Of a stretch of 64,000 nt of DNA, positions 17,147 through 62,118 are shown piece by piece. Position 1 is the stretch's first letter, and each line of letters begins with the position of its first letter. The notes beneath the pieces were generated by a model. The model ran no database searches. It was not told the DNA's origin and was given only the letters and a program-made list of their open reading frames with translations. The position numbers and the translations under genes were made by a program. The stretch spans positions 664,226-728,225 of the forward strand of contig CP029803.1 in NCBI GenBank assembly GCA_003226295.1, written 5' to 3'. Source of the DNA: Candidatus Moanabacter tarae. GTDB lineage: Bacteria; Verrucomicrobiota; Verrucomicrobiia; Opitutales; UBA2987.

Positions 17147-17662
17147 ATGGAAATCCCTCTTGAACAAAGGAAAGCTGTCGCCTCTTGGGTCCGGGAAGGT
17201 CTATCTTTGGCTGAGATTCAGCGCCTTCTAGATGAGAAGTTCTCTATCTCCATTACATATATGGATGTGCGATTTTTGGTCGATGACCTTGAACTGACTT
17301 TGCAGGATGATGGATCTGAATCGAATTCGACGATGGCCTCTAACGATAATTCGGGGCAGGGTCCTTCTTCCTTGTCAGAGGACCAGACTGACCCGATGGT
17401 AGCAGATGAGGAGCTACTTGCCGATACTGCATCCGAAATCATGGGCCCTGAGGTGAGTATCGAAGTTGATAGCATCCTCAAACCGGGTGCCCTTGTTAGT
17501 GGCAATGCTAGGTTTAGTGATGGAGTGAAGGCTGAATGGGCCATCGATCAGCTTGGAAGATTGGCGTTTACTCCGGATCAGGAGGGATACAAGCCAAGCT
17601 CGGAAGACTTACAAGTTTTTCAACAGAAGCTTCAAAGTGCTTTAGAAAAGAAAGGGTTCTGA
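17147..17662 (+). CDS. Conserved acidic protein with helix-turn-helix-like N-terminus
   Basis: This 171-residue protein has no function I can name. The N-terminal part (1-50) is helical with the pattern WVREGLSLAEIQRLLDEKF...YMDVRFLVDDL, which looks like a small winged or helix-turn-helix module. A low-complexity acidic and Ser-rich linker follows (about 55-100), then a compact beta-containing tail (about 108-171) with FSDGVKAEWAIDQLGRLAF. There is no signal peptide. It lies 70 nt after dnaA on the same strand and converges on ligA. I believe similar proteins occur widely in Opitutae, but that is memory, not a search. Confidence 0.7.
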   Translation: MEIPLEQRKAVASWVREGLSLAEIQRLLDEKFSISITYMDVRFLVDDLELTLQDDGSESNSTMASNDNSGQGPSSLSEDQTDPMVADEELLADTASEIMGPEVSIEVDSILKPGALVSGNARFSDGVKAEWAIDQLGRLAFTPDQEGYKPSSEDLQVFQQKLQSALEKKGF

Positions 17663-17701
17663 GGTCTGTATAACTGTGCTCTATATCCTTCTTAGAAGGA
17701 C

Positions 17702-19927
17702 CTAAAGTTTGTTTAGCAGGCTCAGTAGTCCGGATTCGTTGAGGATCTTTATGTTTAGCATTGTAGCTTTCCCGAGTTTTGAACCTGGTGACTCTCCGGC
17801 TACAAGGTAGTCGGTCGCTTTGGTTACCGAAGATAATATTTTTCCTCCCGCTTGCTCGATTATTGCTTTTGTCTCGTCTCGAGTAAAGGAAGGGAGAGTT
17901 CCAGTTAGAACGAACGTTTTTCCCTCGAGAAGGCGGGAATTGTCTGAATCCAGTTTCAGGTAATTGTCGCTATGCGGGTTGATTCCATGTACCATAAGTC
18001 TATGGATGAGTTCAGTGCCAAATCCGGATTCGAAAAAGCGGATTGTATTTTGGGCGGATACGGGTCCAATCTCGGATGCTGGAGGCAGTTCATCCAAGGA
18101 TTGCTCGAGTTCCAGAATTTCTTTTCCAAGGTTGTGGAATCTAATCTTCCGTTCCTCCCTTTCTGGTTCTGACTTTGGTGGGGTTTTTCGGGAATTCGGA
18201 GAAATGGCGTTCCTTTCCTCCTTCAACCGGGAGAGAGCGACAATCGTATGCAGGACCTTTGATTTTGCAGTTGATTTCAGATTCTTGTGCAATTTGGATA
18301 TCTCTTTGGCTTTAGCCTCACCCACATAGGGAATACCAAAACCGTAGAGCCAACGAGAGAGCGGAAGATTTCTCGAACGGTGTAAGGCCTCTACTATTTT
18401 GGCCGCATTTTTAGGACCAAATTGGTGCGGAGAATTTTCTGTTCCCAGATTAAGTTTTGAGAGCTGGACCTCTTCCAAATCGAAGAGGTCGACTGGCGAA
18501 TTAATATGGAAGTTTTCAACAATTTTTTCCGCTACGATGCCGCCAAGGCTTTCAATATTAAGTGCTCTACGACTGGCAAAAAATTCTATGCGGCTGGTCA
18601 CTTGAGCAGTGCACTGAAAATTGACGCAACTATAATCAACAAATCCCTCTAGACGATGGATGGGTTCCCCACAGGAGGGACAAACTCCGTTCAAGTGTTC
18701 CAGGAGATCAAAGGGCTGAGAATCCTCCGGCCTATTCTCGGTTATCACTTGGATAATTGCCGGAATGATTTCACCAGCTTTCTCGACCACTACTGTGTCC
18801 CCAACTCGGATGTCCTTCCTTGATATTTCTTCTGCATTATGCAGGGATGCTCTCGACACCGTTGTTCCAGCTAGATCTAAAGGATCAAGTTCTGCGACAG
18901 GAGTTAGTCGTCCGGTCCGTCCCACCTGTACAGTAATGGCTCGTAAGCGTGTTGCGGCTTGTTCGGCAGCAAATTTATAAGCTATAGCCCATCTGGGGGC
19001 TTTTGCGGTTGAGCCGGCAAGGGATTGTCTTTCGGTGTCGTTGAGTTTGATGACCGCACCGTCGGTGGCATAGCGAAATTTATGGCGCCGTTGGTCTAGT
19101 TCTTTTATGCTGACCCATGCCTGCTCGATCCCATGAGCGAGCCAGTATTGTTCCACCACTGGCATTGCCCAAGATCTCAATGCTTCTTGGAAGCTGACTT
19201 GAGTCTCGAACATTTGGGGTTCGCACGAGCCCATTGCGTATAGGACAATCTCAAGTTTCCGTTCTCGGGCGACATTCTGATCGAGCAGTTTTACTGACCC
19301 TGCAGCGAAATTCCTAGGATTGGTAAATAGAGGTTTTCCTCTTGCAGCACGTTCCCTGTTGATTCGCTTGAATTCCTCAAGAGTCATATAGATTTCACCG
19401 CGAATTTCAATGATTTCAGGCGCTTTGGGCCCTATAAGTGTTCGAGGCAGATCCTCAATATGGCTAACACTTGCCGTAATATCGTCTCCTTCGGCTCCGT
19501 TCCCGCGAGTTACTGCCCTCTTTAACGATCCTTTCTCATAGGTGAGACTGACCGCTACCCCGTCGATCTTGGGTTCTATTACATAAATTAGCTTCTTTGG
19601 ACCGAGGATCCTTTGAAGTCGTCTTTCGAAGTCAAAGAGTTCCTCTTTATTGTAGGTGTTGTCCAGGCTCAGCATCGGTTGCCGGTGTATATAAGTTTTA
19701 AATCCTTCAAGCCGATCGTCACCCACATTTTGGGTCGGAGAATCGTCCGTTTTAAGTTTAGGATTCCTTTCCTCCAATTCTGCCAATTCAGATTTCAGAT
19801 TATCGTAATCCTGATCGGAAATTTCGGGTTGGGTACCTTGTTGAGCTGCCCGAAAATAGATTTCGTCATATCGCTTGATTTTACTCCTGAGGAAGACAAT
19901 TCGAGACGCAGTATTACCATCAAGCAT
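17702..19927 (-). CDS. ligA: NAD-dependent DNA ligase
   Basis: This 741-residue protein joins Okazaki fragments using NAD. Seen: the adenylation motif EPKIDG with nucleophile Lys120, an OB region with VGRTGRLTPVAELDP, a four-Cys zinc finger (CPSCG...CVNFQC), HhH repeats and a C-terminal BRCT domain (LLEGKTFVLTGTLPSF to the end). Compared with the roughly 670 residues of typical LigA, an extra charged segment of about 60 residues, rich in Lys, Glu and Ser, interrupts the HhH region near residues 545-610. The reading frame is intact. Confidence 0.96.
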   Translation of the reverse strand: MLDGNTASRIVFLRSKIKRYDEIYFRAAQQGTQPEISDQDYDNLKSELAELEERNPKLKTDDSPTQNVGDDRLEGFKTYIHRQPMLSLDNTYNKEELFDFERRLQRILGPKKLIYVIEPKIDGVAVSLTYEKGSLKRAVTRGNGAEGDDITASVSHIEDLPRTLIGPKAPEIIEIRGEIYMTLEEFKRINRERAARGKPLFTNPRNFAAGSVKLLDQNVARERKLEIVLYAMGSCEPQMFETQVSFQEALRSWAMPVVEQYWLAHGIEQAWVSIKELDQRRHKFRYATDGAVIKLNDTERQSLAGSTAKAPRWAIAYKFAAEQAATRLRAITVQVGRTGRLTPVAELDPLDLAGTTVSRASLHNAEEISRKDIRVGDTVVVEKAGEIIPAIIQVITENRPEDSQPFDLLEHLNGVCPSCGEPIHRLEGFVDYSCVNFQCTAQVTSRIEFFASRRALNIESLGGIVAEKIVENFHINSPVDLFDLEEVQLSKLNLGTENSPHQFGPKNAAKIVEALHRSRNLPLSRWLYGFGIPYVGEAKAKEISKLHKNLKSTAKSKVLHTIVALSRLKEERNAISPNSRKTPPKSEPEREERKIRFHNLGKEILELEQSLDELPPASEIGPVSAQNTIRFFESGFGTELIHRLMVHGINPHSDNYLKLDSDNSRLLEGKTFVLTGTLPSFTRDETKAIIEQAGGKILSSVTKATDYLVAGESPGSKLGKATMLNIKILNESGLLSLLNKL

Positions 19928-53883: not shown

Positions 53884-54849
53884 CTAACGCTGACCTTTCC
53901 CCGGTGCATCTAGTCCTATATTGGTCAGAGCTCCGAACAAGGTTTCCAATTTGGCTACATCTGATTCGGGAAGGGCGGGACGGAGAAGCGAGTCGATGTT
54001 TGCTTTTAAATGATCCAGATTTCCTGTACCGAACAAGACCACATCGGGACCGTTTGAGTGACGGCAGTAGCGATAGGCAGCGTCGATTATAGATAGCGCC
54101 CCAGCTTCGTGAATGAGGAAATCAAGAGGTTCAGCGTCTTGATTAAATTCCATAGGGAGTTGCCCTTTTTCTACCAGAGTTCTAACTACGCGCTTAAGGC
54201 GTCCCGATTCACTAAACAGTAGTCTGACCGCAAACATACAAAGCACGCCAATGTTTTTTTCTCGTGTTATAGGGAATATCAGTTTTCGGGCTGATTGGTG
54301 CAGCATGTGGAAAGCCACCATGATTACTGGAAAAAATTCTGTTTTTACAGCGCGTGCTAATGTTCTGTGCCCAGAATCTTCGGGAGGAGATTCTGTAATA
54401 CCGAGGAATTTGAACTTTCCCTTTTCTTGCTGTCTTATTAGAAATGGTAAGACAGTTTCGCATACGTAATCGTATTCTTTCGGACGTACCCCGTGTAGAT
54501 GAAATACTTCGACGTAGTCGACTCCTAGTGATTGAAGTGAATGTTCGAGGCTTAGCGTCAACTGTTCTGGAGACTGAAGTCCATTCTCTTTGTTTACTAA
54601 CGCTTTCGTTGAAAGGACCAGTTCATCCCGTTCGTATCCTTTGATCGCTCTGCCAACTAATGATTCGGTGCCGTATACGGCTGCCGTATCAATAAAAGTA
54701 ACTCCCAAATCAAGTGCTTTTCGGATAATCGAAATGGAATCGGCATCGCTCTTCCCAGTACCCTTTCCGATCCTACTGAACCCACCGCAGCCAAGTCCCG
54801 CTACACTAACCTTAAGTTCTGTTCTTCCTAAACTTGTGTACTCCATCAA
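53884..54849 (-). CDS. Aldo/keto reductase
   Basis: This 321-residue NAD(P)H-dependent TIM-barrel reductase has the catalytic tetrad: Asp54 and Tyr59 in FIDTAAVYG, Lys82 in LSTKAL and His119 in VFHLHG. The first strand and loop (VSVAGLGCGGFSRIGK, residues 14-29) are typical of the family. The same 15-residue block recurs in the PhyH-like protein encoded nearby in the opposite direction. The substrate is unknown; a sugar or aldehyde is likely given the neighbourhood. Confidence 0.92.
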   Translation of the reverse strand: MMEYTSLGRTELKVSVAGLGCGGFSRIGKGTGKSDADSISIIRKALDLGVTFIDTAAVYGTESLVGRAIKGYERDELVLSTKALVNKENGLQSPEQLTLSLEHSLQSLGVDYVEVFHLHGVRPKEYDYVCETVLPFLIRQQEKGKFKFLGITESPPEDSGHRTLARAVKTEFFPVIMVAFHMLHQSARKLIFPITREKNIGVLCMFAVRLLFSESGRLKRVVRTLVEKGQLPMEFNQDAEPLDFLIHEAGALSIIDAAYRYCRHSNGPDVVLFGTGNLDHLKANIDSLLRPALPESDVAKLETLFGALTNIGLDAPGKGQR

Positions 54850-55417
54850 GAAAAATCACGAATTACCTTAATTCCAGTATTTTGGGTACTCATTTGTAAA
54901 TTGGAGGAAGATCCCTTAATGGGTGGAGATTCGAGAACGGATACACTATTAACGGTGGTATTAGTTGAGGCGTTTCTACCATTACACAAGCTTAACAAAG
55001 TATTGGAGTCTGGTTGATGTTTCTTTTCTCTTTCATGATTTGCAACCGTGATCATTTCCCAGATCTGCACTCCAGGGTATCAGTATCGACCCTCTGATTC
55101 CCAGTCTCTTATTTGGCTCTGAGTCTCAAGAGCGAGGAAAGAACTCTTTTGTTGGATTTATTATCCGGCGCTTTCAATTTTCTTTCCTTGACTTTAGGGT
55201 AGGGTGAACTACCTGGACTCCTGATAAAAATCTTTAGAATAAAACGGTGAGAAATTAACTTAGAATGTTAAATCAAAATCCAAAGCGATTTTCAATAGAT
55301 GGATACTGTTTATTCAAGGGAGTGTTCAATGATGAGGAGGTGAAGTCGAATCAGATTCTTTTGAACGAAGCCAGCGTAGCCGGACTTGGCTGCGGCGAGT
55401 TTAGCAGGATCGGTAAA
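54763..55417. repeat. Inverted 45-bp coding repeat (arms 54763-54807 and 55373-55417)
   Basis: The reverse complement of 54763-54807 matches 55373-55417 at 37 of 45 bases, in the same codon register. Fourteen of 15 encoded residues are identical, and seven of the eight base differences are third-position and synonymous. Matching stops abruptly on both sides. The arms lie in the aldo/keto reductase and in the PhyH-like gene. Confidence 0.85.
54850..55264. other. 415-bp divergent intergenic region
   Basis: This region separates the aldo/keto reductase from the divergent PhyH-like gene and lies between the arms of the shared inverted block. No gene, ribosome site or terminator stands out. Confidence 0.5.
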
Positions 55418-56032
55418 CTAGATAGGCCTAACTATTTGGGTGAACCGCATGTACGTGATGATCGTTGGCTGCAGATTTGTCGACACCAACGACTACTTGA
55501 TGCAGTAGAATCCGTATTGGGTCCGAATCTGATTCTAGTTTTCTCTAGTGTATTCATCAAACCACCGAAGAGTGTAGATACAGTACCCTGGCATCAGGAT
55601 AATAATTATTGGCCGAGTGTGCACGGTACTAAGGTTGTTACGGTATGGCTGGCCATAGATGATGCCAATAAGAAGAATTCGGCTATGAGGGTAATTCCAG
55701 GCTCACATGTTGGTTTTGAGGAACAAGTTACTGTTCCTTCATTAGGGAATGACATGTTGAATAAAAAGATAGTGGTTTCCCCCGATATTGAAGCGTGCGC
55801 CGTAACTTTAGAGATGGCTGCAGGAAGTTTGTCCATTCACGATTCCTTCTTACACCATAGCAGTGACAAAAACCGAACAGGACGACGGCGAGCTGGATAT
55901 ACAATTCGCTACTGTAGTACAGATACTTCTTGGGTGGACCTGGATGAACATCCCATACCTGTATACCTCGTACGCGGGAAAGCTGGGAAACACGGAGAGC
56001 GGTATATTGACTTACGCCCGAAAAACGAATAG
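55265..56032 (+). CDS. Phytanoyl-CoA dioxygenase (PhyH)-like oxygenase
   Basis: This 255-residue protein has the jellyroll of Fe(II)/2-oxoglutarate oxygenases. Iron ligands are His110 and Asp112 in PWHQD and a His in FLHHSSDKN (about 197), with Arg in RRRAGYTIRY for 2-oxoglutarate. The substrate is unknown; such proteins are common in marine bacteria. Residues 37-51 repeat the N-terminal cofactor loop of the neighbouring aldo/keto reductase almost exactly, although the overall length from DEEV to LLDAVE is normal for the family. No ribosome site is clear. Confidence 0.87.
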   Translation: MLNQNPKRFSIDGYCLFKGVFNDEEVKSNQILLNEASVAGLGCGEFSRIGKLDRPNYLGEPHVRDDRWLQICRHQRLLDAVESVLGPNLILVFSSVFIKPPKSVDTVPWHQDNNYWPSVHGTKVVTVWLAIDDANKKNSAMRVIPGSHVGFEEQVTVPSLGNDMLNKKIVVSPDIEACAVTLEMAAGSLSIHDSFLHHSSDKNRTGRRRAGYTIRYCSTDTSWVDLDEHPIPVYLVRGKAGKHGERYIDLRPKNE

Positions 56033-59774: not shown

Positions 59775-60920
59775 ATGTCTTCCAACCCTATACTTATTGT
59801 CGATGGCCATCTCGACATGGCCTTCAACGCGCTTTTTTACAGGCGGGACCTTACCCAGTCAGTTAAAGTGCTTAGGGAGCGTGAAGATCCCTATGCAGAA
59901 GGGAATTCGAAAACTCCAGCGGTTTTACCACAAGACCTGCTGCGTCGCAAAGGGCCAGTTCGGAGATGGTATACTCCTACTGTGGCTCTCCCGGATATGC
60001 GTAAGGGCCGGGTTGGAATCATGCTTTCTACTATTATGGCAAGGGTGCAAAATCCGTCTCTTTATAGCCATAATTCGGTTCGAACCCAAGCAGTGGCCCA
60101 TGCCCGAGGTATCTCACATTTGGCATATTACCAAGCCCTAGAAAGGGTTGGTGAGATCGTTTTTATTAAAGACCTAACTGATCTTGACAGCTGTGTGGCT
60201 TCGTGGAGAGATCCCGCTGATGATACTCCAGTGGGTTTGATCCTTACGATGGAAAGTGCTGATCCAATCTTTGGTCCTGACGATGTTTCATTTTGGTGGG
60301 AAGCTGGTCTTCGTTCAGTTACACTCACTCATTTCGGGATAAACACTTATGGCCACGGGACGGGGACGGAAGGGGGTCTCTTTCCGCCTGCGTATGCTAT
60401 GATGGATGCTCTTAAGGAGACGAATATAGCTATAGACCTGACCCACGCTTCAGACCAGTGTTTTTGGCAGATCCTCGACTACTGGGACGGGCCAGTTCAT
60501 GCTAGCCACTGTAATTGTCGAGCTTTGGTTCCGGGTCAGAGACACCTGAGTGATGATATGATTAAAGCCCTTACCGAACGAGGGGGTGTGATCGGTCTAA
60601 TGTTTGCGGAAAGCACATTAAGTCCAAAATGGAATTTTGAGGATCGTAAGACTCATTATCCTACTGCTACTCGCCCCATGAAATCTGTAATAGAACACAT
60701 CAACCATATTTGCGATTTGGTAGGCAATACAGATTGTATTGCTTTTGGAACTGATCTGGATGGTGGGTTTGGCCTCGAGCTTTCACCAACAGATTTCAAT
60801 ACGATCGATGACCTGCAATATTTTCTGGAGATTATGCGTGATGCCGGGTACGACGAGGAACAGGTTGAAAAGTTTGCTAATGGGAATTTGGTTAGGTTTT
60901 TTCGGGAGATTTGGACTTAA
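59775..60920 (+). CDS. Membrane dipeptidase (peptidase M19), first copy
   Basis: This 381-residue zinc dipeptidase-family protein has ligands in VDGHLD (His, Asp), the bridging Glu in TMESADP, His in DLTHASDQ, His in ASHCNCRAL and Asp in GTDLDGG. It has no signal peptide, so it is cytoplasmic despite the family name. M19 enzymes cleave dipeptides, often with a D-residue, and some act on amide or lactone substrates. A paralogue follows 109 nt downstream. Confidence 0.92.
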   Translation: MSSNPILIVDGHLDMAFNALFYRRDLTQSVKVLREREDPYAEGNSKTPAVLPQDLLRRKGPVRRWYTPTVALPDMRKGRVGIMLSTIMARVQNPSLYSHNSVRTQAVAHARGISHLAYYQALERVGEIVFIKDLTDLDSCVASWRDPADDTPVGLILTMESADPIFGPDDVSFWWEAGLRSVTLTHFGINTYGHGTGTEGGLFPPAYAMMDALKETNIAIDLTHASDQCFWQILDYWDGPVHASHCNCRALVPGQRHLSDDMIKALTERGGVIGLMFAESTLSPKWNFEDRKTHYPTATRPMKSVIEHINHICDLVGNTDCIAFGTDLDGGFGLELSPTDFNTIDDLQYFLEIMRDAGYDEEQVEKFANGNLVRFFREIWT

Positions 60921-61029: not shown

Positions 61030-62118
61030 ATGACAGGACAAAAACCTTATCTAATCGTCGATAGCCATTTAGACCTAGGGTTTAATGCTATTCAGGTGAA
61101 TAGGGACCTTACGATGCCGTCTAGAACCGTAAGGACTCATGACATGGAGGGGGTGCGGGAGCAGTTCGGTTCTTGTACCGTTTCTTTCCCTGATCTACGT
61201 CATGGAAATGTAGGTATTATTTTTGGAACCGTAATGTCCCGCCTTGATCCTAGGGACCGCTTATCTGGAACCGGTATGTATGATCAGTCTCAATGCTACG
61301 GGGTTGGGTCTGGACATTATGCTTTCTACAGGGCAATGGAGAAGGAAGGGATACTCCGGTTCATTACTTCAACGGATGAAATGAATGCCATTGTCCAGAC
61401 CTGGAGCAACCCGGCTCCCGATTCTCCTATAGGATTGGTTTTGGCTATGGAGAGTGCGGATCCCATTCTCGATGTGGATCAATTACCTCTCTGGTATGAT
61501 CGGGGTTTGAGAATTGTCAGCCTCTCCCACTATGGGGTGAGTTCTTATTGTCATGGGACTGGAACCGAGGGTGGGCTTCTGCCTAGAGGACGGGATCTCC
61601 TGACTGCTTTGAGGGAGGCGGGTATTATTGTCGATTTAACCCATACTACAGATCAGGCCTTTTGGGAGATAATAGAGGCCTATGATGGGCCTGTCGGAGC
61701 GACCCACCATAATTGCCGATCCTTGACTCCGGGGCAGCGTCAATTGACCGACGAAATGATTCAGGCGATCATTGAGCGAGGAGGAGTTATAGGTACAGCT
61801 TTCGATGCATGGATGTTAGACCCGAATTGGAATCCAGATCTTCCTGCTTATCAGCAGACAACAGATGCGACCCTCGCCACAGTAGTTGATCACATCGAGC
61901 ATGTTTGCCAATTAGCTGGCAACGCTCGGCATGCTTCTATAGGTACAGACCTGGATGGTGGATACGGGCAGGAGCAGTCCCCTAGAGATTTAGATACAAT
62001 AGCGGATCTCCAGAAACTGGTACCAGAGATGAAGCGACGTGGATTTGTGGAATCTGAAATCCAAGGGATCCTATCGGGGAACTGGATCCGATTACTGAAG
62101 GAGACTTGGGGTCCTTAG
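61030..62118 (+). CDS. Membrane dipeptidase (peptidase M19), second copy
   Basis: This 362-residue paralogue has the same ligand set: VDSHLD, AMESADP, DLTHTTDQ, THHNCRSL and GTDLDGG. The two copies are clearly related across their length but differ in the N-terminal lid and in many loop residues, so substrate specificities probably differ. It is probably cotranscribed with the first. It has no signal peptide. Confidence 0.92.
   Translation: MTGQKPYLIVDSHLDLGFNAIQVNRDLTMPSRTVRTHDMEGVREQFGSCTVSFPDLRHGNVGIIFGTVMSRLDPRDRLSGTGMYDQSQCYGVGSGHYAFYRAMEKEGILRFITSTDEMNAIVQTWSNPAPDSPIGLVLAMESADPILDVDQLPLWYDRGLRIVSLSHYGVSSYCHGTGTEGGLLPRGRDLLTALREAGIIVDLTHTTDQAFWEIIEAYDGPVGATHHNCRSLTPGQRQLTDEMIQAIIERGGVIGTAFDAWMLDPNWNPDLPAYQQTTDATLATVVDHIEHVCQLAGNARHASIGTDLDGGYGQEQSPRDLDTIADLQKLVPEMKRRGFVESEIQGILSGNWIRLLKETWGP

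Follow-up and report, generated by a model that had tools for sequence, protein, structure and literature searches.

In the window, the 64-kb stretch of DNA analyzed here, an aldo/keto reductase gene lies next to a PhyH-like Fe(II)/2-oxoglutarate oxygenase gene, and the two are divergently transcribed (Table 1). Each belongs to a large family in this 2.6-Mb genome, in which we counted 28 PhyH-like and 21 aldo/keto reductase-like matches. The expected catalytic residues of the PhyH-like protein (H110, D112, H198, and R209) are all kept; across 38 family sequences, H198 and R209 are invariant, and H110 and D112 are nearly so. An AlphaFold2 model of the protein, with these 38 sequences as the alignment input, gave a mean pLDDT of 92.5 and a pTM of 0.90. 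The model adopts the double-stranded beta-helix of the PhyH-type oxygenases, which was also matched with Foldseek; it compares closely with ThoJ (6zyl; Z of 25.9, rmsd of 2.3 over 222 residues) and with human PHYH (2a1x; Z of 23.6).

The two genes share a short tract in inverted orientation. The reverse complement of the reductase tract agrees with the tract in the oxygenase gene at 37 of 45 bases, in frame in both genes, and 14 of the 15 encoded residues match; the eight codon differences comprise seven silent changes and a single replacement, of Gly to Glu. The copies are spaced 566 nt apart and are now 82% identical, and agreement drops to background in the flanks on both sides. The counts of matching bases, matching residues, and silent changes, together with the shared codon frame and the sharp ends of the match, reproduce what the initial annotation had described. 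Chance was ruled out as the origin of the match: self-BLASTN of the 64-kb window gave the tract an E value of 8e-6, and when the PhyH-like gene was codon shuffled (100 shuffles), the best match to the reductase gene reached 28 of 45 bases. Apart from paralogous and self-palindromic repeats, no other repeat was found in the window by this search. Self-comparison also showed a pair of tandem paralogues, a dipeptidase-like gene and its neighbor, at 60204-60817 and 61402-62012, with 59% DNA identity. Identical codons are used at 7 of the 14 shared residues, against 4.2 expected from codon usage (p of 0.08); the agreement therefore resides mainly in the protein sequence, with silent sites near randomized.

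Table 1. Genes, matching tracts, and inverted repeats described in the text (window positions unless a locus is named)
Feature	Position	Strand	Remarks
Aldo/keto reductase gene, likely donor	53884..54849	-	Pfam PF00248, E 4.7e-34; likely start ATG at 54846
Likely donor tract	54763..54807	-	SVAGLGCGGFSRIGK; reductase residues 15-29; first strand and Gly-rich turn of the barrel
PhyH-like Fe(II)/2-oxoglutarate oxygenase gene, recipient	55265..56032	+	Pfam PF05721, E 5.7e-28; open frame
Recipient tract, whole	55373..55417	+	SVAGLGCGEFSRIGK; PhyH-like residues 37-51
SVAGL part of the match	55373..55387	+	overlies native positions (relatives VRAGF, VCAGF, TLAGL)
Net insertion, 10 codons (GCGEFSRIGK)	55388..55417	+	missing in orthologues; predicted flexible loop
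Second inverted pair	L104:2708-2751 and L104:2954-2997 (G000:C1:2262708-2262997)		

On the reductase side, the block occupies the usual family position in the first barrel strand, as judged by alignment with reductases of the same genome and phylum; one of these, L067, is colinear with the donor tract (VSKVGLGCGGFSRLGQ), and the block also aligns with solved reductases such as L-galactose dehydrogenase (8scc). The degenerate motif VAGLGCG occurs at two places only in the 2.63-Mb genome, and these are the two copies; likewise, GLGCG(G/E)FS is found in frame in this genome only in the reductase and the PhyH-like gene. Among 387 genomes of the phylum, one other reductase carries GLGCG(G/E)FS, and the remaining matches fall in unrelated or probably noncoding frames. 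Another reductase of the same genome was ruled out as the donor, since the best of the 20 other reductase-like loci agrees with the block at about 24 of 45 bases; across 400 kb of sampled genome, the runner-up scored 26 of 45. Since the peptide has a normal family position in reductases and the motif is found nowhere else in the genome, the adjacent reductase gene is likely the donor, directly or via a related allele. The family position thus supports the source that had been proposed from the window.

The recipient side can be read against two orthologue lineages. The closest PhyH relatives (loci L009-L013) come from Latescibacterota/Gemmatimonadetes MAGs and share 57 to 58% identity over residues 1 to 253; the second lineage is represented by L049, from a genome of the same phylum (G385), with 55% identity. 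Both align on either side of the block, and both are without its ten residues: the window protein reads SVAGL-GCGEFSRIGK-LDRPNYLGEPH, and L010 and L049 read VRAGF-LDRDQYYGEPH and TLAGL-SGLPNYYGEPH, respectively, a length difference of exactly 30 nt. No block motif was found in the other 37 aligned PhyH sequences. A motif widespread in PhyH proteins was ruled out, as GLGCG(G/E)FS occurs in no other PhyH protein of the 387 same-phylum genomes. A search of viral contigs and plasmids found no closer orthologue, and no relative of the reductase lies within 5 kb at the five MAG loci. Because the closest relatives in two lineages are without the block, the window lineage has gained ten codons, a net 30 nt. 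The initial annotation had the segment replacing a variable stretch of the PhyH-like gene; the event was for the most part an insertion, not an equal-length swap. Where the relatives have xxAG(F/L), the window protein has SVAGL, which accounts for five of the 15 matching residues, and some of the agreement may therefore be microhomology inherited from the ancestor; Ala-Gly is ancestral at these positions, and SVAGL is possibly either microhomology at a switch point or overwritten native sequence.

In the predicted model, the only segment of at least three residues with a pLDDT below 50 is residues 46 to 52, inside the block, whose place in the fold had been raised as a check. It falls in the loop that connects helix 23-38 to the strand at 57-59, and this loop varies in length across the 38 sequences of the family. 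The low confidence is partly expected because no other aligned sequence supports the inserted segment, and it means that evidence for order is missing, not that the segment is disordered; the inserted segment is probably a flexible loop. A binding function shared by the two proteins, as once suggested, is unsupported, the block being the only low-confidence loop of the model, and the model likewise lends no support to nucleotide binding inherited from the reductase.

We consider it fairly likely that a local template switch copied the reductase tract into the PhyH-like gene in reverse-complement orientation; among the mechanisms originally put forward, this one is retained as the best. During replication or repair, the growing strand would leave the PhyH template at a short match (about GCxGG, at the Ala-Gly codons), copy about 45 nt of the reductase gene from the opposite strand, and then return, so that about 15 nt would be swapped for 45 nt in one event, with a net gain of 30 nt. 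With the insert in frame and in a surface loop of variable length, the oxygenase would remain intact and the insert would be tolerated. Inverted copies 566 nt apart are a signature of local template switching, and GCGGG at the left junction is common to the donor and the extant orthologues, which stand in for the sequence before the event; the right junction has no clear microhomology, which counts against a template switch, as do other observations. The copies have diverged to 82% identity and are not a fresh perfect copy; the length copied (about 45 nt) and the distance (about 570 nt) are large relative to great-ape short-range events; and the silent sites look near saturation, by which time a flexible loop would be expected to have drifted away from its original sequence. 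For the loop peptide to be retained, either selection must have acted or the donor must have been diverged already. We rejected gene conversion between the copies, as it would have erased the silent differences.

Purifying selection on the block in the PhyH protein would mean that the transplanted Gly-rich peptide gained a function, such as a substrate lid or partner binding; it bears on upkeep, not origin, and is compatible with a template switch. We used a neutral-clock test in which the reductase side is constrained, the PhyH side is neutral, and both are aged alike. The probability of at least 7 silent changes among 8 was 0.009 to 0.019, which favors selection, but it was only 0.03 to 0.06 for the ten inserted codons alone, and the silent excess (7 to 1) is only modestly significant (p of about 0.01 to 0.06). 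Selection is further opposed by the low confidence of the loop in the model, by PhyH relatives that are built without the block, and by the position of the sole replacement in mid-turn; overall, we regard it as possible, if rather unlikely. The silent differences may instead reflect a donor allele that already differed silently, which may have belonged to a related reductase or to the present one at an earlier stage, or they may reflect mild selection on the loop, which we do not regard as demonstrated. No reductase orthologue close enough to polarize the silent changes was found; the closest, L067 and other family members, share about 37% identity, and the changes therefore cannot be assigned to one side. 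The counts are consistent with the earlier proposal that the peptide was kept at the protein level as codons drifted, but the p value is only 0.009 to 0.019 (0.03 to 0.06 for the ten inserted codons), and a silently diverged donor would account for them as well. In the fuller scenario, a copying error moved a short TIM-barrel peptide into an oxygenase with a double-stranded beta-helix and selection then preserved it, a local inverted duplication thereby giving rise to a new functional loop; this strikes us as quite unlikely.

A different route to the same insertion is suggested by Acinetobacter baylyi, in which short single-stranded DNA, foreign or the cell's own, replaces a short segment at microhomology; Harms and colleagues reportedly described short-patch double illegitimate recombination in Acinetobacter. 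On this reading, a site of microhomology in the PhyH gene would have taken up, by illegitimate incorporation, a short single-stranded fragment from the organism's own genome or from a foreign cell with a related reductase. A foreign donor would have brought its silent differences along, and the event could be recent; the 7 silent changes to 1 replacement and the near-random codon agreement would be explained without selection on the loop. The likeness to the A. baylyi process lies in the replacement of a short segment at what would be microhomology, but no preference for orientation or distance is expected in that process, whereas here donor and target are neighbors. The adjacency of the sole matching reductase would have to be coincidental, unless a related strain had supplied the fragment from this very locus, and just one other of the 387 phylum genomes has a GLGCG(G/E)FS reductase. 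We judge this route unlikely.

It is very improbable that the block is an old feature of the PhyH subfamily, lost in the relatives, with its likeness to the reductase due to chance or convergence. A more distant relative, L050 (36% identity), does have a longer loop at the same place, but its sequence is different; 14 of 15 residues beside the sole matching reductase cannot be chance, and the motif is in 0 of the 37 other aligned PhyH sequences. Rickettsia palindromic elements are dispersed repeats that form in-frame coding insertions at tolerated surface positions. Although the block resembles them as an in-frame coding insert at a tolerated surface site, it is scarcely conceivable as a dispersed protein-coding mobile repeat of this type, since it duplicates part of the neighboring gene just once, is 45 nt long and not palindromic, and has two genomic copies only, of which the one in the reductase gene is at home in its family.

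Comparable repeats were sought in about 860 kb, roughly a third of the genome, consisting of the window and 40 stretches of 20 kb. Besides the reductase/PhyH pair, only one short, spaced inverted pair reached an E value of 0.01; it is 44 nt long, 82% identical, spaced 203 nt apart, and unique in the genome. One of its arms immediately precedes a potassium-channel-like gene, and the other is located where the following spacer ends; of the two pairs, the reductase/PhyH pair alone connects coding genes. In length and divergence, the second pair resembles the first. The sampled stretches also contain tandem duplications of about 0.86 to 1.25 kb with 99% identity (L086:772-2945; L093:313-2775 and 17608-19329; L100:2972-4732), which suggests recent local gene duplication in this genome, and short direct repeats of about 40 to 80 nt, 71 to 98% identical, in open reading frames (L115:691-1149; L122:2562-3053), possibly encoding repeat-containing proteins.

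The kind of event has precedents. In the four-point template-switch model, a nearby inverted copy is inserted with a net length gain, and the commonest four-point classes leave a single inverted repeat; short-range switches in great apes have a median copied length of 12 nt and a maximum of 128 nt (PMC7954356). As in those events, a nearby reverse-complement copy is found at a second site, where a short stretch has been replaced and length gained; unlike them, the present case involves a bacterium and two unrelated coding genes, is longer than typical, and is old (82% identity). In yeast coding genes, template switching between inverted repeats alters between one and five residues in a single event (PMC8604942); E. 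coli is known to undergo quasipalindrome mutation (PMC7202029). Here too, one site would template the other in inverted orientation, changing multiple adjacent residues; yet the yeast and E. coli events correct existing inverted repeats and alter at most five residues, whereas here ten codons of another gene were added.

We conclude that the insertion is real and well delimited, in frame, and templated by a neighboring, unrelated gene. The kind of mechanism is already known; what is unusual is the length, the transfer from gene to gene, and the bacterial setting. With the donor, the recipient, and insert-free outgroups all identified, the locus offers a readable case of ten codons of one enzyme becoming a loop of an unrelated enzyme. 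If the block proves to be conserved in sister strains, it would provide direct evidence for such copying errors as a source of new, selected protein segments.
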